Below are positions 20,110 to 59,379 of a DNA stretch of 64,000 nucleotides, in pieces. The translations under genes and the position numbers were made by a program. The stretch lies in assembly GCF_000331735.1 (NCBI RefSeq), contig NC_020126.1, positions 2,914,001 to 2,978,000 of the forward strand, given 5' to 3'. Below the pieces are notes generated by a model. It was not told where the DNA came from. It worked only from the letters and a program-made list of their open reading frames with translations, and did no database searches. Each line of letters starts with the position of its first letter. Position 1 is the stretch's first letter. Source of the DNA: Myxococcus stipitatus DSM 14675. Lineage in GTDB: Bacteria > Myxococcota > Myxococcia > Myxococcales > Myxococcaceae.

Positions 20110-20874
20110 TCAGGCCGGGTGATAGCGGGCCAGCACGCAGGTGACGTTGTCGTTGCCGCCCGCGGCGTTCGCCATGTCGATGAGCTGGGAGCACGCCTTG
20201 TCCAGCTCCGGCGTGCGCCCGAGAATCTCCTGCATCTGCGGGTCCGTCACCATGCCGCTCAGGCCGTCCGAGCACAGCAGGAAGACGTCGCCCGGCTGCG
20301 GCTCCACGCGGGAGACGTCGACCTGGACGGCCTCTTTCATGCCCAGGGCGCGGACGATGACGTTCTTGTGCGGGAAGTTCTCCACTTCCTCGGGCGAGAG
20401 CTTCTTCGCCTTGAGGTAGTCGTTGAGAAGGGAGTGGTCCTCGGTGATCTGCTTGAGGACGCCCGAGCGGAAGAAGTACACGCGGCTGTCGCCCACGTGG
20501 CCGACGTAGGCGACGTCGCTGGCGAAGTGCACGCTGACGATGGTCGTGCCCATGCCCTTGTACTTCGACTCGCTGCTGGCCTTCTCGAAGATGCGCGCAT
20601 TGGCGAGCTTGATACCGGTGGCCAACCGGTTCTCGTCATAGTTGCGCTGCTTGTCCATCTTGAAGGGCCAGGTGCTGTCCTGGTCCTTGGACGTCATCTT
20701 GTAAAACTCACCCAGCTCGTCCACGGCGATGCGGCTGGCGATTTCGCCCGAGGAGTGACCTCCCATGCCGTCCGCGACGATGAAGAGGAACTCGTCGGGC
20801 AACATGAGGAAGTTGTCCTCGTTGTGGTTCCGCTTCATCCCGACGTGGGTGCTGCCGGCTACCTCGATGCGCAT
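20110..20874 (-). CDS. PP2C-type Ser/Thr protein phosphatase
   Basis: Metal-dependent phosphatase of 254 residues, the likely counterpart of Hanks-type kinases such as those elsewhere in this window. All the PP2C metal and core motifs are visible: GMKRNHNEDNF, FIVADGMGGHSSGEIAS, VGDSRVYFFRSG, LLCSDGLSGMV and AAGGNDNVTCVLA. ATG at 20874 (MRIEVAGSTHVG) is the family-typical start with AGAAGAG upstream; a GTG at 20916 in the same frame is an alternative adding 14 residues. Soluble, with no membrane segment. A DUF192 gene lies upstream on the same strand. Confidence 0.92.
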   Translation of the reverse strand: MRIEVAGSTHVGMKRNHNEDNFLMLPDEFLFIVADGMGGHSSGEIASRIAVDELGEFYKMTSKDQDSTWPFKMDKQRNYDENRLATGIKLANARIFEKASSESKYKGMGTTIVSVHFASDVAYVGHVGDSRVYFFRSGVLKQITEDHSLLNDYLKAKKLSPEEVENFPHKNVIVRALGMKEAVQVDVSRVEPQPGDVFLLCSDGLSGMVTDPQMQEILGRTPELDKACSQLIDMANAAGGNDNVTCVLARYHPA

Positions 20875-20964
20875 GCGCGGGGACTCTTCTAAGGGGACGA
20901 GAAACTGGCGGCGCACGTTAACAAAGCGCTCGGAAAACGGTCAAAAGACGTGCTCTCCCGCCGG

Positions 20965-21342
20965 TCAGGCAGGGGACACCGGGGCCTGGGAGGCAGGCTC
21001 GAAGCTCAGCCGGTCCCCCTCCTGGGTGCCGCTGGCGGCCAGGACCCCCGCGGGAAGCTCCAGGACGGAGCGTGCTTGGAAGTACACCGATGTCGCACGC
21101 CATGGGGGGAGTGCAAGCATCTGCTTGACGATGCGCCCCTGGGCGTCCAGGAAGGCGACGTCAATGGGGATGCGCATGAAGAACGTGTGGATGGAGTTGC
21201 AGGGCTGGATGTGGAGGCCCTCGCCCACGGCGAGCTCGGCGCGGCCCATCAGCCCCTTGAAACGCTGGACGAAGTTCGTTGCCTTCTCGGCCCGGTCCGC
21301 CAGCGGCCGTTGCCGCGTCTCGTTGGTCACCTTCCAGCGCAT
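20965..21342 (-). CDS. DUF192 family protein
   Basis: Small protein of 125 residues with the DUF192 core: ERAEKATNFVQRFKGLMGR-like N-terminus, GLHIQPCNSIHTFFMRIPID, VAFLDAQGRIVKQMLALPPW and ARSVLELPAG. The family has no established biochemical activity. Unlike many members there is no signal peptide. It faces trmL divergently with only 17 bases between starts, so the two promoters must overlap each other's coding regions. Confidence 0.85.
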   Translation of the reverse strand: MRWKVTNETRQRPLADRAEKATNFVQRFKGLMGRAELAVGEGLHIQPCNSIHTFFMRIPIDVAFLDAQGRIVKQMLALPPWRATSVYFQARSVLELPAGVLAASGTQEGDRLSFEPASQAPVSPA

Positions 21343-21359
21343 GTAGCGCGTTCTACCCC

Positions 21360-21863
21360 ATGCTCGAGCCCCTGGCGCGTCCTCTGCATCTGGTTCTGGT
21401 CTCTCCTCAGATTCCCCCCAACACGGGCAACGTCGCCCGGCTGTGCGCGGTGACGGGCTGCCGGCTCATCCTGGTGGAGCCCCTGGGGTTCTCCATCGAT
21501 GACCGCCAGCTCAAGCGGGCGGGGCTGGACTACTGGGACAAGGTATTTCTACGGCTGTACCCGACCTATGCGGCGTACGTGGAGGCGTACCCGGACGCCC
21601 GGCGGTGGCTGTTCTCGGCCCGGGCGGAGCAGTCCTTGTATGAGGCCCGCTTCGAGGAGGGGGACCACCTGGTGTTCGGCTCGGAGGTGACGGGGCTGTT
21701 GCCGGAGGTGATGGAGGGGGGGACGGGGACGGCGCTGGGGATTCCCATGCTGGAGGGGCGGCGGAGCATGAACCTGTCCACGGCGGTGGGGGTGGGGACG
21801 TACGAGGCCCTGCGACAGGTCTGTTTCGCAGGGGCGGGCAGGCGGGCCCCCTCGGCAAGTTGA
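21360..21863 (+). CDS. trmL: tRNA (cytidine/uridine-2'-O-)-methyltransferase TrmL
   Basis: SPOUT methyltransferase acting on the wobble ribose of tRNA-Leu isoacceptors. The 167-residue protein has SPQIPPNTGNVARLCAVTGC, LDYWDKVFLRLYPTY, FGSEVTGLLPEV and IPMLEGRRSMNLSTAVGVGT, the trefoil-knot SAM site of TrmL. ATG at 21360 gives the normal N-terminus. It ends 27 bases before the giant PATAN/DnaJ gene. Confidence 0.93.
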   Translation: MLEPLARPLHLVLVSPQIPPNTGNVARLCAVTGCRLILVEPLGFSIDDRQLKRAGLDYWDKVFLRLYPTYAAYVEAYPDARRWLFSARAEQSLYEARFEEGDHLVFGSEVTGLLPEVMEGGTGTALGIPMLEGRRSMNLSTAVGVGTYEALRQVCFAGAGRRAPSAS

Positions 21864-21890: not shown

Positions 21891-24800
21891 GTGAGGATGA
21901 ACTCGTCGCAGGCCGCTGAAGCGCTGTATTCCGCTCACAAGAACCGAGCCACCGGATGGCTGACGCTGTCCGCGGGAGGGCGCGAGTCGCGGCTGATGCT
22001 GCGCGAGGGAGACCTCGTGGGGACTCGGCTGGGGTTCGGGTATCAGAGCCCGGCGCAGGCGTTGTTGCAGAGTGGACTGTTGAGCGCGGAGGCGTTGGAT
22101 GCGCTCTGGGCGCGGGGTGGGGCGGGGGCGGCGGACGAGGAGTTGTTGGAGGAGCACGGGCTCGAGTCGGACGCGGTGGTGGAGCAGCAGGTGCTCGCCC
22201 ATGTCCGGCGGCTGAGTGAGTTGGCGGAGCGCGCGGCCTTCGAGCCGGGGAGTGTGGAGGCGGAGTTCCAGCCCATCTCCGGCGTGAGGGTGGTGCGAGC
22301 GGCACTGGAGCGGGCGGGGGCGGGTGGGGCGAAGGGGCGGGTGTTCCGGTGCGCGGATGTTTCGGTGTGCGAGCCGTGGATTACGGATGCGTCCGAGCGG
22401 GAGTTGTTGGCGACGCTGGGGGAGTTCCGGGCGCCGGAGGCGCTGACGCCCGCGCGTGAGGCGCTGTTGCTGGTGCTCGAGCGCGAGGGGGGCGTCGAGG
22501 CGCTGTCGGTGGAGGAGTGGGAGGCGCGGGAGGAGGCTCGGCGGCGGGAGGCGGAGGAGGCCCGGCTTGCTGAAGAGGCTCGGCTGGCGGAGGAGGCGCG
22601 TCGGGTCGAGGAGGCTCGGCTTGCTGAAGAGGCTCGGCTGGCGGAGGAGGCGCGTCGGGTCGAGGAGGCTCGGCTTGCTGAAGTGGCTCGGCTGGAGGAG
22701 GAGGCACGTCGGGTCGAGGAGGCTCGGCTTGCTGAAGAGGCTCGGCTGGCGGAGGAGGCGCGTCGGGTCGAGGAGGCTCGGCTTGCTGAAGAGGCTCGGC
22801 TTCGTGCGGAGGAGGAGCGCCTCGCCGAAGAGGCTCGATTGGCGGAGGAGGCGCGACTCGCTGAAGAGGCTCGGCTTCGCGCGGAAGCGGCGCGTGTCGC
22901 CGAAGAGGCTCGGTTGGCGGAGGAGGCGCGGCTCGCCGAAGAGGCGCGGCTTCGTGCGGAAGAAGAGCGCCGTGCGGAAGAGGCTCGACTCGCCGAAGTG
23001 GCGCGGCTGGCTGAGGAGGCCCGTCGTGCCGAAGAGGCTCGGCTCCGTGCGGAGGAAGAGCGTCGTGCCGAGGAGGCACGACTTGTCGAGGCTGCTCGAC
23101 TCGCCGAAGAGGCGCGGCTTCGTGCTGAAGAAGCGCGCCGTGCTGAGGAGGCTCGGCTCGCAGAAGAAGTCCGCCTCGCTCAGGAGGCTCGACTCGCAGA
23201 AGAGGCTCGCGTCGCTGAGGAGGCCCGACTCGCTGAAGAGGCTCGACTCGCTGAAGAGGCTCGACTCGCAGAAGAGGCCCGCCTCGCTGAGGAGGTTCGA
23301 CTCGCAGAAGAGGCTCGACTCGCAGAAGAGGCTCGACTCGCAGAAGAGGCTCGCATCGCTGAGGAGGCTCGCGTCGCAGAGGAGGCCCGCCTCGCAGAAG
23401 AGGCTCGCGTCGCTGAGGAGGCTCGACTCGCTGAAGAGGCTCGCCTTGCTGAAGAGGCTCGCCTTGCTGAGGAGGCCCGTCTCGCTGAGGAGGCTCGACT
23501 CGCTGAAGAGGCTCGCCTTGCTGAAGAGGCTCGCGTCGCAGAGGAGGCTCGCGTCGCAGAGGAGGCTCGCGTCGCTGAGGAGGCCCGCGTCGCAGAGGAG
23601 GCCCGCCTCGCTGAGGAGGCTCGACTCGCAGAAGAGGCTCGACTCGCAGAAGAGGCTCGTGTCGCTGAGGAGGCTCGTGTCGCTGAGGAGGCCCGCCTCG
23701 CTGAGGAGGCCCGACTCGCAGAAGAGGCTCGACTCGCAGAAGAGGCTCGACTCGCAGAAGAGGCGCGACTCGCAGAAGAGGCTCGACTCGCAGAAGAGGC
23801 GCGTGTCGCTGAGGAGGCTCGACTCGCAGAAGAGGCTCGTGTCGCTGAGGAGGCTCGACTCGCAGAAGAGGCTCGCCTCGCTGAAGAGGCTCGCGTCGCA
23901 GAGGAGGCCCGACTCGCTGAAGAGGCTCGCGTCGCAGAGGAGGCTCGACTCGCAGAAGAGGCTCGACTCGCTGAGGAGGCCCGACTCGCTGAAGAGGCTC
24001 GCGTCGCAGAGGAGGCTCGCGTCGCAGAGGAGGCTCGCCTCGCTGAAGAGGCTCGCGTCGCAGAGGAGGTCCGACTCGCAGAAGAGGCTCGCGTCGCAGA
24101 GGAGGCTCGCGTCGCAGAGGAGGCTCGCGTCGCTGAGGAGGCCCGACTCGCTGAAGAGGCTCGACTCGCTGAAGAGGCTCGACTCGCAGAAGAGGCTCGA
24201 CTCGCAGAAGAGGCTCGACTCGCAGAAGAGGCTCGACTCGCAGAAGAGGCTCGACTCGCAGAAGAGGCTCGTGTCGCTGAGGAGGCCCGCCTCGCTGAGG
24301 AGGCTCGACTCGCAGAAGAGGCTCGCGTCGCTGAGGAGGCTCGCGTCGCTGAGGAGGCTCGACTCGCAGAGGAGGCCCGCCTCGCTGAGGAGGCTCGACT
24401 CGCAGAAGAGGCTCGCCTCGCTGAGGAGGCCCGACTCGCTGAAGAGGCTCGTGTCGCAGAGGAGGCCCGACTCGCAGAAGAGGCTCGCGTCGCAGAAGAG
24501 GCTCGCGTCGCTGAAGAGGCTCGCGTCGCAGAAGAGGCTCGCGTCGCTGAGGAGGCCCGCCTCGCAGAGGAGGCCCGCCTCGCAGAAGAGGCCCGTCTCG
24601 CAGAAGAGGCCCGTCTCGCTGAGGAGGCGCGGCTTCGTGCGGAAGAAGAGCGCCTTGCTGAGGAAGTTCGTCGCGCTGAAGAGGCTCGGCTAGCAGAGGA
24701 GGCCGCGCGGCTCCGCGCAGAAGAAGAGCGTCGTGCTGCCGAGGAGGCTCAGCTCGCAGAAGAGGCTCGACTTCGTGCGGAAGAAGAGCGCCTTGTTGAG

Positions 24801-45196: not shown

Positions 45197-45333
45197 GCAT
45201 AGGAGCCTGCGCCATGAGGGCGGAGGGGTGTTGGGGGGGAGTGGGTGTTAAGGACCACTCGCACACATTTTCGGGTTTGAGCTAGGGTGCTGCGCCCCGG
45301 GGTCACCGGGTGCGGCAGGCCAACAAGGGCAAT

Positions 45334-48300
45334 ATGTCGAAGAAGCGCGTCCACGAAATCGCCAAGGAGCTCAAGGGCCACGGCATTGAGCTCGACAACA
45401 AGGAGGTCGTAACCGAGCTGTCCGCGCTCGGGTACGACGTCAAGAGCCATTCGTCCTCCCTCGATGACGACCAGGCGACCGCCGCCGTTCAGAAGATTCT
45501 GGACAAGCGCAAGCCGAAGCAGGCCGCCCCCCCGGTGACGGCGAAGGGGTTCGTGGTTCGCCGCAAGGTGGGCCCGGCCGCCGGTTCCTCCGCGGATGCC
45601 GGCGCGGACATGCAGGGCATGGAGTACGCCGAGCAGGCCTCCATGTCGGCGCCCGCCGTCGATACGCCGCCTCCCGCCGCCGCGGAGGCTTTTGCTCCTT
45701 CGCAGCACCAGGATGAGCCTTCTCACTCGGTGGAGGCCTCGGCCCCCGTGGAGCCTCCCCAGGCTCCCGTGGCCGTGGAGCCACCTCCCGCCGTCGCCGC
45801 GCCAGTCGCGCCGCCCGCCGCGTCCCCCGCGGTCGAGTCGCCGGCTGCTCCCGCGGTCGCCGCCCAGACCCCTGTCACGACCGAGGCCCCCAAGGCCCCG
45901 GCCGCCGAGGCGCCTCGCGCCCCTGTTTCACCTCCCGCTGCCGCCGCGCAGCCTCGTTCCCCCGCTCAGGAGAGCACCCACTTGCCGCAACCCCCTCCGC
46001 GCTCGCCGGTCCCGCCGACTGTCCGGACGCCGTCTTCACCGTCTTCGTCCGCGACCGTCGTGTCTCGGGGGCCCGCGCCGGGTTATGGGCAGCGGGGTGC
46101 GCCCTCGGGCGGACGCCCCGGTGGTCCGGGTGGCCCGGGTGGCCGTCCCGGTGGTCCGGGTGGCCCGGGTGGCGGACGTCCAGGTGGCCCGGGTGGCCCC
46201 GGGGGTCGTCCTGGCGGTCCGGGTGGCCCGGGTGGTCGTCCTGGGCAGGGGGGGCGTCCGAGCTACTCGTCCTATCAGGGACAGGGCGCGCGTCCGGGGC
46301 AGGGCGCGGTGCGTCCCAGCTCGGCGCCGGGCTCCTTGCAGGCCACGGGGGGCGCGGTTCCCTCGGCGCCGCAGGGTCCCACCATCATGGTGGGCGGCAT
46401 TCCTCACGCCCAGGTGTCTCCGACGGGCGGACAGGCGCGTCCCACGGCCACGCAGGCCGTCGTCATCTCGCGCCCGCTCATCCAGGTCCGCCGCGTCACT
46501 CCGACGGCGGGTCAGGCGAAGCAGTACCCCATGGCGCCGGGTCGCGCGGGCATCCCCGAGCGGCGTGAGTACAAGGTGGTCCCGGACCACCTGGGCCGTG
46601 GCCGCGAGCTGGTGGACGTCTCCAAGAACAAGGAGCGTGGCCAGCGCAAGCGCACCAGCGGCGATACGCAGAGCGTGTCCAAGCAGGAACTGACGGACAT
46701 GGTCTGGGGCCGCGTCACCATCCCGGTGCGTGGCAAGAAGAAGAAGCCCACGAAGAAGGGCGCCAAGACGCAGATCACCCAGATGGCCGAGGAGAAGAAG
46801 GTCATCAAGCTGCAGGAGGGCATCAGCGTGTCCGACCTGGGCCAGCGTATGGGTGTGCGCAGCGCGGACATCATCAAGAAGCTGATGGGCCTGGGGAAGA
46901 TGGCCACGGCCAACCAGATGGTGGACGCCGACACCGCGGAGATGATTGCCGGCGACTACGGCTGGAAGATCGACCGCGTGGGCTTCGAGGTGGAGGACTA
47001 CCTGCCCGAGGTGGAGGCGCGTCCCGAGGACGAGCGTCCGCGTCCGCCGGTCGTCACCATCATGGGCCACGTCGACCACGGCAAGACGAGCTTGCTGGAC
47101 GCCATCCGCAGCGCGAACGTCGCGGCGGGCGAGGCGGGCGGCATCACCCAGCACATCGGCGCGTACAGCATCTCCACGGCGCGCGGTGACGTCACCTTCC
47201 TGGATACCCCTGGTCACGAGGCCTTCACGTCCATGCGCGCCCGCGGCGCCAACGTGACGGACATCGTGGTGCTGGTGGTGGCCGCCGACGACGGCGTGAT
47301 GCCGCAGACGGTGGAGGCCATCAAGCACGCGAAGGCGGCGGAGGTGCCCATCGTCGTCGCCATCAACAAGATGGACGTGCCGGGCGCCAACCCCGACCGC
47401 GTGAAGAAGGACCTGGCCAACCACGAGCTCGTCCCCGAGGAGTGGGGCGGCGACACCATCATGGTGCCCGTGTCCGCCAAGACGAAGCAGAACCTGGACC
47501 TCCTCCTGGAGAACTTGGCGCTGCAGGCGGAAGTGCTGGAGCTCACGTCCAACCCGAACCGTCCGTCCGTCGGCGCCGTCATCGAGGCGAAGCTGGACCG
47601 CGGCCGGGGCCCGGTCGCCACGGTGCTGGTGCAGGAGGGCACGCTCAAGCTGGGCGACGCCATCGTCACCGGCTCGCACTACGGCCGTGTCCGCGCGATG
47701 AACAACAGCCGCGGCGAGATGGTGAAGGAAGTCAAGCCGGGCTACTGCGCGGAGGTCGTCGGCCTGTCCGGTGTCCCCAGCGCGGGCGACGCCATCAACG
47801 TGGTGGCGGACGAGAAGGCGGCCAAGCAGATCGCCGAGCACCGCAACATGAAGGAGCGGCAGACCGAGCTCAGCAAGGTCAGCCGCGAGTCCCTGGAGCA
47901 GCTGTTCGCCAAGACGAAGGCGGGCGGCGGTCCCAAGGAACTGCGCGTCGTCATCAAGGCGGACGTGCAGGGCTCGGCCGAGGCCGTCAAGCAGGCGGTC
48001 CAGAAGCTCTCCACGCACAAGGTCAAGGTGGAGGTCGTCCACACGGGTGTGGGTGCCATCACCGAGGGCGACGTGATGCGGGCGGCCGCCTCCAAGGGCG
48101 TGGTGCTCGGCTTCAACGTCAACCCGGAGTCCGGCGCCGAGGCCGCGGCCAAGGCGCAGGAAGTCACCCTGCAGAGCTACTCCATCATCTACGAGCTCAT
48201 CGATGGGGTGCGCACGGAGATGGAGAGCCTGCTGGAGCCCATCCGCACGGAGAAGAAGCTGGGCCGCGCGGAGGTCCGCAACACCTTCAACGTTCCTCGC

Positions 48301-48549
48301 CTGGGCACCATCGCCGGCGCGGCGGTGCTGGATGGTGTGATGAAGCGTGGCTCCTTCGTTCGCCTCATGCGCGAGAACAAGCAGTTGTTCCAGGGCAAGA
48401 TGGCGTCGCTGCGGCGCTTCAAGGACGACGTCAAGGAAGTCGCGCAGGGCTTCGAGTGCGGTATCGGCATCGCGGACTTCAACGACCTCAAGGCCGGAGA
48501 CATCATCGAGGCCTACGAGATTGAAGAGACCCGGCAGAGCCTGACGTAA
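45334..48549 (+). CDS. infB: Translation initiation factor IF-2, long form
   Basis: GTPase that places initiator tRNA on the 30S subunit. 1071 residues: an IF2-N domain ([20 protein letters not shown]), a low-complexity region of about 300 residues (Pro/Ala first, then [10 protein letters not shown] repeats at about 46,090-46,260), a second IF2-N unit ([20 protein letters not shown]), the G domain from about residue 575 ([19 protein letters not shown]) and domains II-IV. Myxobacterial IF2 is known to be unusually long. ATG at 45334 gives the usual MSKKRV; a GTG at 45310 in frame is less likely. A hairpin follows the stop. Confidence 0.97.
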
Positions 48550-56229: not shown

Positions 56230-59200
56230 TTGCTTTGCTACCGCTGCGGAAGCCACGTCCCCGAGACGAATGACACCTGTCCCACCTGCGGGATGAAGTA
56301 CGACGCGACTGCTCGACAGGCAGCCGGCGTCGCTCGCAAGCGGGGTCTGGAAGGCGCGCCCTACAAGCCCGGGGACGTCCTCGCCGGCCGCTACTCCATC
56401 AAGGAAGTGGTGGGCTCGGGCCCCATGGGCTTCGTCTTCCGGGCCCAGGACGAAGAGATAGACGTCGAGGTCGCGCTGAAGACCGTGCACCCGCGGCTCG
56501 TGCAGCAGCCCGAGGAGCGCACCCAGTTCTCCTTCTCGATGCGGGTGGGCAAGAAGCTCAACCACCCCAACCTGTTGCGCGTCTACGAAGAGGGGCTCGA
56601 TGGCGAGCGGCCCTTCTTCACCATGCAGCTGTTGGAGGGATTGACGCTGCGGCGGATGATGGAGCAGCGCGCCTCGCGCGGGCAGCTCTTCTCGCTCAAG
56701 GACGTGGAGCCGCTGCTCGCGCAGATGGCCGCGGCGCTGGATGCCGCGCATCGCTTCGGTCCGCACTCCGACGTCAAGCCCGAGAACGTCATCGTCCTGC
56801 CGGACCTGCTGAAGGTGACGGACTACGGGCTGGGGCTCGCCGTGCCGCAGCTGCCCTTCGTCCAGGCGCAGAAGGGACATCGCTCGGATGTCTACATCGC
56901 GCCCGAGTACGTGGCGGGTGGTGAGCTCGACACGCGCATGGATGTGTACTCGCTCGGCGTGGTGATGGGTGAGCTCCTCACCGGGCTGGTGCCGACGGAA
57001 GGCGTGGTGCCGGGACTCACGTCGCTGCACCCGGACCTGCCCACGTCCTTCGAGGCGCTCTATCGCCGAGCGCTCAACATCAACCCGCTGGCCCGGCCGA
57101 AGTCCGCGGGGGAGCTGCACGCCGAGTTCGCCAACATCCTCGCGCGCTCGCCGGCCGCGGTGACCACGCGGGTGCGCGGTGTGCCGCCTCCCCCTGGGTC
57201 CGCGCAGGCCGCCGCGGTGAGGATGTCCGCTCGGCCTCCGCCGCCGGTGCCCACGGACATGATGCCGATTCCCACGGGCATCGTGTCCGCCGCGAAGCCG
57301 CCGCCGCCGGTGGCTGCTCCGCACGAGGAGGAAGAGCCGCCTCCGCCGGATGCGACGCAGCCGCTGGATGCGGCGACGCTCGCCGCCATCATTGGCGCGA
57401 ATCCCCATGCGTCGCATCAGCGCCTCACCGAGCAGGCGATGCCGTTCATCTCCGGCCCGGCGGCTCGTGCCGCGATGGAGTCCGCGCAGGGGGGGCGTGC
57501 CTCGTCCGATGCCGGACGCGGCGGTGGTGAGTCGCCGTACGGTGGTCGTTCCGCGCAGGATGCCGCGCATGGCGGACGCGCGGGCGCCGAGGGCGGGAGG
57601 TCCGCGTCGGAGTCCTTGCACGGGGGCCGCTCTAGTGGCGAGTCGTCGCAGAGCGGACGCGGCGGTGGTGAGTCATCGCAGAGCGGACGCGGCGGTGGCG
57701 AGTCGCTGCAGAGCGGTCGCGGCGGTGGCGAGTCGTCGCAGAGCGGACGCGGCGGTGGTGAGTCGTCGCAGGGCGGTCGCGGCGGTGGCGAGTCGTCGCA
57801 GAGCGGTCGCGGCAGTGGTGAGTCGTCGCAGGGCGGTCGCGGCGGTGGTGAGTCATCGCAGAGCGGTCGCGGCGGTGGTGAGTCGTCGCAGAGCGGACGT
57901 GGCGGTGCTGAGGCCTCGCAGAGCGGTCGCGGCGTTGGTGGCTCGTCGCAAGGCGGTCGCAGCGGTGGCGAGTCGTCGCAGAGTGGTCGCAGCGGTGGTG
58001 AGTCGTCGCAGGGTGGTCGCAGCGGCAGTGAGTCGGCGCACGGTGGCCGCGCTGGTGCTGAGGCATCGCAGAGCGGTCGCGGAAGTGGTGAGCCTTCGCA
58101 GGGTGGTCGCGGCGGTGGTGACCCTTCGCGGTCCGGAGCGGATTCGAACCACAGTGGACGCTCGGGCGCGGAGAGCCTCTCGCGAGGCTCTTCAGAGCCG
58201 TCCCTGAGTGGACGCTCCAGTGCGGAGCCATCTGCGCGTTCGGGAGGCCCCGCGCCTCGCGCCTCCGGTCCGATGCCCTCGGCACAACCGCGAGCATCGT
58301 CGCGAGGCCAGGACTCGGTGGCGGGCGAAGCCGCTCCCTCCGTCTCCGGTGCCCGGTCCGCGCGCGGGCTGGAATCCTCTCCCGCGACGTCTGGTGCCCG
58401 CCCCGTGTCGCGGACCCTGGAAGCGCCCGTGGTGCCGAGCATCCGCACGGCACGCACGCTCGAGACCGTGCCGGCGATGTCGGGCGCGCGCACCGCGCCT
58501 CGGGCCCTCGACTTCGACCCGAGCATGTCGGGAGCGCGCTCGGGGGCACGCATCGCGCCGACTCAGCGGGGCAATCGCCCGCAGAAGTCCTCGGCCAAGC
58601 GTCGTCGTCTGGCGTTCGTCTGGATGGTGGTGCTGACGGTGGGTGGCCTCGCGCTCGGCGCGGGCGGCGGCTATCTGCTGTTGAACTACTGGAAGTCTCG
58701 CGGCACCCCGAAGCCGTCTGCTCCCTCCGCGGGTTCAGTGTCGCGGCAGGGGGGCAATGAAGTGGCGCCTCCGCTGGTCGTGGCCCTGTCTGAGAAGTGT
58801 CAGGACGGGATGCGGCTGGTGAGCGGAGGGTCCTTCAAGCGAGGCAAGGTCCGCGACGACGAACTCGCCAAGGTGGACGAGCGTCCCAGCGAGAACGTCA
58901 TGGTGAACTCCTTCTGCATCGACGAGTTCGAGTTCCCGAACCAGCGGGGAGCGACCCCTCGAGTGGACGTCACCTTGGCTCAGGCACGTGCGCTGTGCGA
59001 GGCGGCGCAGAAGCGGCTCTGCACAGAGGACGAGTGGGAGAAGGCATGCAAGGGACCGGGCAACGCGCGCTTCGCGTACGGGAACGATTACCTTCAGGGC
59101 ACGTGCAATACGAAGATTCCCCAAGCGGGCATCGTGCCTTCCATCGCGGCGTCCGGGACGTCACCTCAGTGCGTCTCGCCGGGCTATCGCGTGGCCGACC

Positions 59201-59379
59201 TCTCCGGCAACGTCGCCGAGTGGACGGAGACCCGCATCGAGCGCCGGGGCACCATCCAGAAGGGTGGAGCCTTCAACGAGCCCTACGCCGACTCCCGCTG
59301 CAGCGCGGTGAAGTATGGCGACCCCGAGATGGCCTCCGCGTCGGTGGGCTTCCGTTGCTGCTCGAGCGCACAGCCATGA
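56230..59379 (+). CDS. Zinc-ribbon / kinase-like / 30-bp-repeat linker / TM / SUMF1-like fusion protein
   Basis: 1049 residues. A zinc ribbon (C3, C6, C17, C20) opens it. The kinase-like domain (about 55-310) keeps K84 in VALKTV, D181 and N186 (HSDVKPEN), but the HRD Arg is Ser and DFG reads DYG, so activity may be altered. A Gly/Ser/Arg repeat linker (468-637), one membrane segment (about 793-818) and a SUMF1/FGE-like domain from about 856 (GMRLVSGGSFKRGKV, LCTEDEWEKACKGP, LSGNVAEWTETR, GFRCC) follow. FGE cysteines of the catalytic pair are not evident, so it may be a ligand-binding domain. TTG at 56230 is the only start that keeps the ribbon. The next gene overlaps by ATGA. Confidence 0.88.
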   Translation: MLCYRCGSHVPETNDTCPTCGMKYDATARQAAGVARKRGLEGAPYKPGDVLAGRYSIKEVVGSGPMGFVFRAQDEEIDVEVALKTVHPRLVQQPEERTQFSFSMRVGKKLNHPNLLRVYEEGLDGERPFFTMQLLEGLTLRRMMEQRASRGQLFSLKDVEPLLAQMAAALDAAHRFGPHSDVKPENVIVLPDLLKVTDYGLGLAVPQLPFVQAQKGHRSDVYIAPEYVAGGELDTRMDVYSLGVVMGELLTGLVPTEGVVPGLTSLHPDLPTSFEALYRRALNINPLARPKSAGELHAEFANILARSPAAVTTRVRGVPPPPGSAQAAAVRMSARPPPPVPTDMMPIPTGIVSAAKPPPPVAAPHEEEEPPPPDATQPLDAATLAAIIGANPHASHQRLTEQAMPFISGPAARAAMESAQGGRASSDAGRGGGESPYGGRSAQDAAHGGRAGAEGGRSASESLHGGRSSGESSQSGRGGGESSQSGRGGGESLQSGRGGGESSQSGRGGGESSQGGRGGGESSQSGRGSGESSQGGRGGGESSQSGRGGGESSQSGRGGAEASQSGRGVGGSSQGGRSGGESSQSGRSGGESSQGGRSGSESAHGGRAGAEASQSGRGSGEPSQGGRGGGDPSRSGADSNHSGRSGAESLSRGSSEPSLSGRSSAEPSARSGGPAPRASGPMPSAQPRASSRGQDSVAGEAAPSVSGARSARGLESSPATSGARPVSRTLEAPVVPSIRTARTLETVPAMSGARTAPRALDFDPSMSGARSGARIAPTQRGNRPQKSSAKRRRLAFVWMVVLTVGGLALGAGGGYLLLNYWKSRGTPKPSAPSAGSVSRQGGNEVAPPLVVALSEKCQDGMRLVSGGSFKRGKVRDDELAKVDERPSENVMVNSFCIDEFEFPNQRGATPRVDVTLAQARALCEAAQKRLCTEDEWEKACKGPGNARFAYGNDYLQGTCNTKIPQAGIVPSIAASGTSPQCVSPGYRVADLSGNVAEWTETRIERRGTIQKGGAFNEPYADSRCSAVKYGDPEMASASVGFRCCSSAQP
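57631..58140 (+). repeat. 17 tandem 30-bp units coding GGGESSQSGR
   Basis: Units run exactly in register every 30 bases (for example GGCGGTGGTGAGTCGTCGCA plus ten more). Interior units differ by few bases; first and last are degenerate, with related but decayed units before 57631. It encodes a flexible linker inside the kinase-SUMF1 protein. Confidence 0.95.

Follow-up and report, generated by a model that had tools for sequence, protein, structure and literature searches.

The locus, its neighbors, and its relatives

The window analyzed here, a 64,000-nucleotide stretch of Myxococcus stipitatus DSM 14675, comes from a host genome that is a single contig of 10,350,586 bases. On its plus strand, positions 21891..27083 (1,730 codons from the GTG at 21891) encode a protein made up of a DUF4388 domain, an ARLAEE hexapeptide array, a J-domain, and TPR repeats; because Met is found at that column in several relatives, translation may actually begin at the ATG at 21897 rather than at the GTG. 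A folded N-terminal domain of the DUF4388 (PATAN) type (residues 3 to 206; 21897..22508) is followed by the array (residues 215 to 1086; 22533..25148), which comprises 872 residues with a net charge of -120. Within it, a strict core of 80 consecutive hexads (residues 433 to 912; 23187..24626) is flanked by a degenerate N-terminal edge with longer units (residues 215 to 432; 22533..23186) and a degenerate C-terminal edge (residues 913 to 1086; 24627..25148). The stretch from 22560 to 25133, which an earlier note had singled out as the array, is indeed in frame (residues 224 to 1081), and the full array is larger. Beyond the array lie a Pro- and acidic-rich linker (residues 1087 to 1500; 25149..26390), probably disordered as judged by eye from its composition, the J-domain (residues 1501 to 1567; 26391..26591, with HPD at 26475), and TPR repeats matched by Pfam (about residues 1603 to 1705; 26697..27005), all on the plus strand. 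The linker contains a RRQRLLRRAMENMG motif (26190-26231, plus strand) ahead of the J-domain, and an RRQRLL-type motif was found in 36/41 proteins. Motifs resembling RRQRLLRRAMENMG were also seen by eye in array-free relatives from other families.

The earlier note had set the array between PATAN-type and DnaJ ends, and Pfam, hhalign, and domain scans supported both. The J-domain matched Pfam DnaJ with an E value of 2e-13 (50.7 bits, cut-off 27.8), and an HPD was present within the C-terminal 330 residues of all 41 proteins. At the N terminus the DUF4388 model (PF14332) scored 20.7 bits (E 4.5e-4), under its Pfam cut-off of 25, and matched 9 of the 11 sequences of the N-terminal alignment A1 at an E value of ≤0.1. 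Comparison of this region with six sister-family DUF4388 proteins, every one of which matches DUF4388 itself at an E value of ≤0.01, gave an hhalign probability of 96.7 (E 4e-10). AlphaFold2 (AF2) modeling of residues 1 to 240 with 11 sequences predicted a folded domain up to residue 206 (mean pLDDT 87) and a helix, residues 207 to 239, that runs from it directly into the array. A Foldseek search with the N-terminal model returned no match at an E value of ≤0.001, and a fold comparison (VIA) was uninformative, with a best Z score of 4.8 and type IV pilus ATPase N-domains at about 3. Two further open reading frames overlap the array, one of 938 amino acids on the minus strand and one of 745 in a second frame; both are expected, since a stop-free repeat yields such frames as by-products. 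Which frame is the coding one is settled by the domains flanking the array, by the single open frame kept in 40/40 relatives (themselves selected for long frames), and by codon statistics.

A SpoU-family RNA methylase gene (21351..21863, plus strand, with a tentative start codon) ends 27 nucleotides before the GTG; the two genes are possibly cotranscribed. Farther upstream, on the minus strand and in conserved positions, are genes for a DUF192 protein (20965..21342) and a PP2C phosphatase (20110..20916). A gene for a receiver-DUF4388-TPR protein (27218..29905, plus strand) lies just downstream, as it does in 27/27 named family loci (L072 to L098); loci L099 to L130 look like generic J-domain matches and were left out of this count. 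The order PP2C, DUF192, methylase is kept upstream in 11 of the 27, and the contigs of the other 16 (L073, L074, L079 to L081, L083, L085, L086, L088, L090 to L093, and L095 to L097) end within the array-protein gene, so drafts often cut the array. Two more repeats were noticed elsewhere in the window: a 30-bp repeat in 16 GGESSQSGRG-like copies (57635-58121) within an open reading frame (56230-59379) that looks protein kinase-like by eye, and a Gly/Pro-rich repeat (46106-46241) in one (45310-48549) that by eye resembles translation initiation factor IF-2.

The C terminus was matched at an E value of ≤1e-20 in 90/96 family genomes, with paralogue-level scores only in G027, G049, G080, G089, and G090, and at orthologue level (E value of ≤1e-60) in 85/96, the window's own genome included. 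Named relatives include Myxococcus, Corallococcus, Citreicoccus, and Pyxidicoccus records, M. xanthus AM003, and several metagenome bins; the named loci overlap the family-genome set (e.g., L072 and G065), and the two sets are therefore not independent. One record labeled Comamonas sp. KCTC 72670 (L087) carries an orthologue that is 82% identical and has the same neighbors, and is probably a mislabeled Myxococcus. The first 40 relatives were chosen for long open frames and contigs, and in all 40, so selected, the N terminus, array, and C terminus lie in one open frame. Statistics on 41 arrays (38,260 residues) refer to the window and these 40 relatives only. Among 19 later relatives, 8 are complete with an array of 486 to 995 residues, 8 are cut by a contig end, L149 is a draft with its frame broken inside the array, L151 contains a run of N, and L165 is complete and has no array; from the remaining 25 orthologue-bearing genomes only short ends were taken. 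In L165 (G046:C19) the array is replaced by an Ala/Arg/Glu-rich, helix-like stretch of about 65 to 75 residues, as judged by eye, and the array is thus not indispensable for the protein family.

Across the class, 118/138 genomes gave a match, 30 of these outside the family, and 14 of the 30 were fetched. Eleven of the 14 have the J-TPR C terminus after a short, often Pro-rich linker in place of an array, and DUF4388 was present in all six of these 11 that were tested; in L135 to L137 the contig ends before the N terminus, and other charged helix-like stretches are present. The simplest history that these sequences suggest is that the linker of a DUF4388-linker-J-TPR protein became a giant array within the family. 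A paralogue lies in the same genome (L131, G000:C1 at about 1436600-1440000; match 1436615-1437238), and each of the genus's 27 genomes gave a second C-terminus match; the paralogue's layout was read from end to end in L131 and L132 and at the C-terminal end in L133 and L134. Like the array protein, the paralogue has a repetitive spacer followed by a J-domain and TPR; unlike it, the spacer is a Gly/Pro/Ala/Met repeat and there is an extra N-terminal region. A region before the spacer looks DUF4388-like by eye; comparison of the array protein's N terminus with the paralogue gave a BLASTP E value of 0.011 and an hhalign probability of 3 (E 0.014). The occurrence of such unlike linkers at the same place (array, Pro-rich, Gly/Pro/Ala) suggests a spacer role.

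Units and coding constraint of the array

Tandem Repeats Finder (TRF) reported 133.7 copies of an 18-bp unit at 22557-24999. The figure of about 140 ARLAEE repeats given in the earlier note holds as a measure of length (872/6, or about 145 unit lengths) and fails as a count of the exact hexapeptide, which occurs only 73 times. The whole array contains 106 hexads of this kind, namely 73 ARLAEE, 28 ARVAEE (101 AR(L/V)AEE units together), and 5 of four other near-forms; the remaining units, mostly at the edges, either deviate further (e.g., ARRVEE) or are longer (e.g., ARLRAEE and ARLRAEEERLAEE). The strict core consists of 50 ARLAEE, 27 ARVAEE, 2 VRLAEE, and 1 ARIAEE. Charged residues make up about 52% of the array and Ala, Leu, and Val 47%, with only one Lys. 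That not one of the 872 residues is Pro or Gly and that self-identity at period 6 is 0.78 shows that the array did not arise by chance. A PDB sequence search with the array gave no matches at an E value of ≤0.001, and the motif letters ARLAEE were not found in the literature search.

In the 80 core hexads, pS was 0.44 and pN 0.04 (pN/pS 0.09). Nearly all DNA differences within the core fall at third positions, with the CTC/GTC (Leu/Val) exchange as the main exception. Variation that is almost entirely synonymous, together with one open frame in 40/40 relatives, establishes the array as coding. These values bear on the proposal that a selfish or neutral tandem repeat expanded in a linker whose structure is not under selection. 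Such an expansion would account for array lengths of 383 to 1317 residues between species, for the 148 residues by which the window differs from a relative with a 98% identical C terminus, and for the absence of the array in L165. It is nevertheless very unlikely, given the low pN/pS, the retention of Arg2 and Glu5 at 96 to 97% over 41 arrays, the diversified synonymous codons, and a DNA identity of only about 85% between core units, with a longest exact repeat of 83 bp. The last two values rule out recent expansion by slippage.

Codon use sets the array apart from its flanks: G/C-ending codons are rarer in the array for Ala (39/41), Arg (41/41), Glu (41/41), and Leu (37/41), and the similarity between adjacent units exceeds the average in only 15/27 testable arrays. 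From this pattern, synonymous diversity seems to be either maintained or tolerated, which would lower recombination between units. Codon diversification as a trait specific to the array is weakened by the paralogue, in whose unrelated repeat GC3 is lowered as well, at Pro, Ala, and Gly codons; the tendency may therefore be general to repeats here.

Conformation and association of the array

The continuous alpha-helix proposed in the earlier note was supported computationally. AF2 was given a 300-residue piece of the strict core and no alignment; the five models had pLDDT values of 80.6 to 88.9, and the best of them (88.9), from which alone secondary structure was taken, is one helix spanning residues 2 to 299 (298/300). 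According to passages of one study, AF2 leans to beta-solenoids for perfect repeats, a bias that the helix obtained here runs against, and AF-type programs can produce false long helices (PMC11795689). Because such programs can also invent helices, we take the AF2 helix as support rather than proof.

Conservation points the same way. With a register model seeded with ARLAEE and then re-estimated, identity over the 41 arrays was 97.3% at Arg2, 96.2% at Glu5, 87.8% at Glu6, 84.7% at Ala4, 80.7% at Ala1, and 70.4% at Leu3. Position 3, the least conserved of the six, is Leu, Val, or Ile in 78% of cases and Arg in 11.5%, with some Gln, Lys, and His. That Arg2 and Glu5 are kept best and Leu3 least favors a helix, since a beta-helix or a packing seam would keep Leu. 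Among the 38,260 residues there are only 23 Pro and 21 Gly, and 1,001 register shifts, a freedom that fits a helix because a helix tolerates such shifts. The pairing of Arg with Glu at i+3 and i+4, as the earlier note had claimed, exceeded that of shuffled sequences in 41/41 arrays (z 14 to 26); in the window, opposite-charge pairs per residue numbered 0.339 at i+3 and 0.192 at i+4, and like-charge pairs 0.003 and 0.007. We consider it very probable that the array is alpha-helical. Its stability could come from intrinsic propensity, as it is composed almost only of Ala, Leu/Val, Arg, and Glu, and from a continuous Arg2-Glu5-Arg8 chain at i+3 with an extra Arg2-Glu6 bridge at i+4.

Hexapeptide periodicity also raises the prospect of a left-handed beta-helix (LbH) solenoid with three hexads per coil. 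Hexads of this fold carry a conserved inward aliphatic residue, and LAEEAR fits the LbH hexapeptide motif, [LIV]-[GAED]-x2-[STAV]-x. The array indeed matched NCBIfam models for YdcK (3.7e-34), LpxD (1.3e-33), and LpxA (1.3e-24) and passed the Pfam LbH_EIF2B cut-off (9.9e-17, 61.3 bits over a cut-off of 54). However, all 18 of the listed NCBIfam families scored below their curated cut-offs (118 bits against 350 for YdcK, 116.6 against 207 for LpxD, 86.8 against 231 for LpxA), and the array also passed the Pfam cut-offs for the unrelated Plasmodium HRP (8.9e-30) and LED_rpt (3.2e-16) repeats. Since HRP and LED repeats score above cut-off too, the LbH scores appear to reflect low-complexity periodicity. 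The would-be inward Leu is the least conserved position, the window array lacks Gly and Pro, no three-unit period in Leu/Val use was found in the core (P value of 0.14), and the frequent register shifts and the AF2 helix also speak against a solenoid. On conservation, NCBIfam cut-offs, the absurd parallel matches, and AF2, we rejected this fold, despite the passed LbH_EIF2B cut-off, as the least credible of the alternatives considered.

Whether a helical array stands alone or packs against others is a separate matter. As the earlier note had pointed out, Leu positions rotate by 240 degrees per unit, which follows directly from the sequence, and its view that an ordinary heptad coiled coil is disfavored stands: there is no 3.5-residue a/d stripe, and mean power at 96 to 108 degrees in the window was 1.03, whereas shuffled sequences gave 2.01 and an ideal heptad, as control, 13.7. 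Hydrophobic triplets were below the shuffled mean in 41/41 arrays and heptad-angle power was below shuffled in 37/41, the latter partly because of the six-residue period itself. In five arrays of genus g6 (L053 to L057) heptad-angle power was about that of shuffled sequences, equal or above in L053 to L056 and slightly below in L057.

A helical but oligomeric array, in which copies pack through Ala/Leu stripes (by even-period stacking or as Alacoil-like pairs) into a stiffer rod, is the one rival with appreciable weight, though we regard it as unlikely. Ala, Leu, and Val account for nearly half of the residues, and the five g6 arrays are free of depleted heptad-angle power. Passages of a study of designed repeats report that the Ala-enriched AEEAKKA apparently dimerized and that the Arg-rich AEEERRR and AEEEKRR aggregated (PMC5347031). 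The comparison of AEEAKKA and AEEERRR with the array is inexact, because these heptads align Ala on one face and the hexad does not. Against packing, a six-residue period spreads Leu over three faces and leaves no seam, the depletion of hydrophobic triplets and (in part from the period itself) of seam power is nearly universal, Leu3 tolerates Arg and other polar residues, and the net charge of -120 should repel parallel copies. Our own unweighted salt-bridge count for the array is about 0.31 of that of an EEEEKKK repeat, a raw value that is not comparable with the Waggawagga cut-off of 0.25 for single alpha-helices (SAHs), which is a weighted score. This count and the dimerizing and aggregating designed repeats make a monomer less safe a claim than a helix, and we judge the array to be probably monomeric.

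Array length and possible function

At 872 helical residues the contour would be 131 nm, and the earlier note had read the array as a molecular ruler of about 129 nm. A ruler of fixed length is very unlikely and was not supported, as the 41 arrays range from 383 to 1317 residues and a long single helix bends. Array length was taken as the longest composition run, which may undercount interrupted arrays in L058, L059, L061, and L062, where the rest of the protein measures 1006 to 1103 residues. In nine same-genus genomes on contigs of 8.97 to 13.2 Mb the array is 880 to 1109 residues long, with a coefficient of variation (CV) of 8% compared with 0.7% for the protein outside the array; the corresponding values were 0.12 and 0.007 in 21 genus proteins and 0.24 and 0.08 in all 41. 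One relative with a 99% identical C terminus has 880 residues where the window has 887, with a unit order that differs by eye, and the relative with a 98% identical C terminus has 1,035. Net charge across the 41 arrays runs from -39 to -181. With the persistence length of about 15 nm given for SAHs in part of a published study, the root mean square end-to-end distance for a 131-nm contour would be about 59 nm (PMC5347031). Because repeat chemistry is kept and length varies, the array is better described as a flexible boom than as a fixed ruler; selection would keep the salt-bridge chemistry and the continuity of the helix, and its length only roughly.

On balance we favor one continuous, most likely monomeric, semi-flexible helix of about 130 nm that serves as an acidic boom between a DUF4388 anchor and an Hsp70 co-chaperone. 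The DUF4388 domain would anchor one end to a partner, the long, solvent-exposed acidic helix would let the J-domain and TPR repeats sweep a volume tens of nanometers across, and Hsp70 (DnaK) would be drawn to the neighborhood of the anchored complex and stimulated there. By analogy, this arrangement could possibly operate at a motility or signaling complex. For a cyanobacterium, a title cited in PMC9239167 names the pilus motor ATPase PilB1 as interaction partner of a PATAN-CheY-like regulator, and in cyanobacteria a DnaK system is reported to link pili with polysaccharide secretion. M. xanthus is credited in passages of two studies with 16 J-domain proteins (PMC10313047) and several Hsp70 homologues (PMC11019930). 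The array protein was not found in literature on Myxococcus with DnaJ, PATAN/DUF4388, or single alpha-helices, covered mostly by titles and passages, and the searches made found no partner, localization, or phenotype for it.

Trichohyalin, a vertebrate structural protein, is proposed to form a very long single-stranded, charged alpha-helical rod, and the predicted helix of the array resembles such a rod in a different setting. SAH or ER/K helices (myosin-6, caldesmon, CAF-1 KER) share with the predicted helix of the array a Glu/Arg-rich, seamless make-up with opposite charges at i+3/i+4 and a place between two domains. The array differs in its length (SAHs typically have 40 to about 200 residues, according to part of PMC5347031), its high Ala/Leu/Val content, strict hexad core, and single Lys, and its place in a bacterial J-domain protein. 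Domain II of E. coli TolA and of TonB is a repetitive alpha-helical element that sets a working domain apart from its anchor, the role proposed for the array. TolA repeat copy number varies from 8 to 16 among E. coli isolates (PMC3477136, in part), much as array length varies, and TolA/TonB relatives have a helix or a Pro-rich spacer (PMC12204202, in part), as do relatives of the array protein. Unlike the array protein, TolA and TonB are periplasmic, with spacers of 110 to 335 residues in the proteobacterial sample described in a passage of PMC12204202. Pfam scans of the array protein revealed no domain shared with TolA/TonB, and we regard TolA as the best working analogue, with no sign of kinship.

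A monomeric array helix would be several times longer than the usual SAH, and its dozens of natural variants, built on a simple six-residue code, would offer material on SAH cohesion and bending. More tentatively, the array, with 872 residues in this protein and up to about 1,300 in relatives, may be one of the longest monomeric single alpha-helices in nature, with a hexad salt-bridge code and a role as semi-flexible boom for an Hsp70 co-chaperone, and its codon diversity may hinder recombinational collapse. Should a bacterial co-chaperone indeed be carried on a boom, the array-free relatives would be ready-made controls, L165 being a natural control for what the array contributes.
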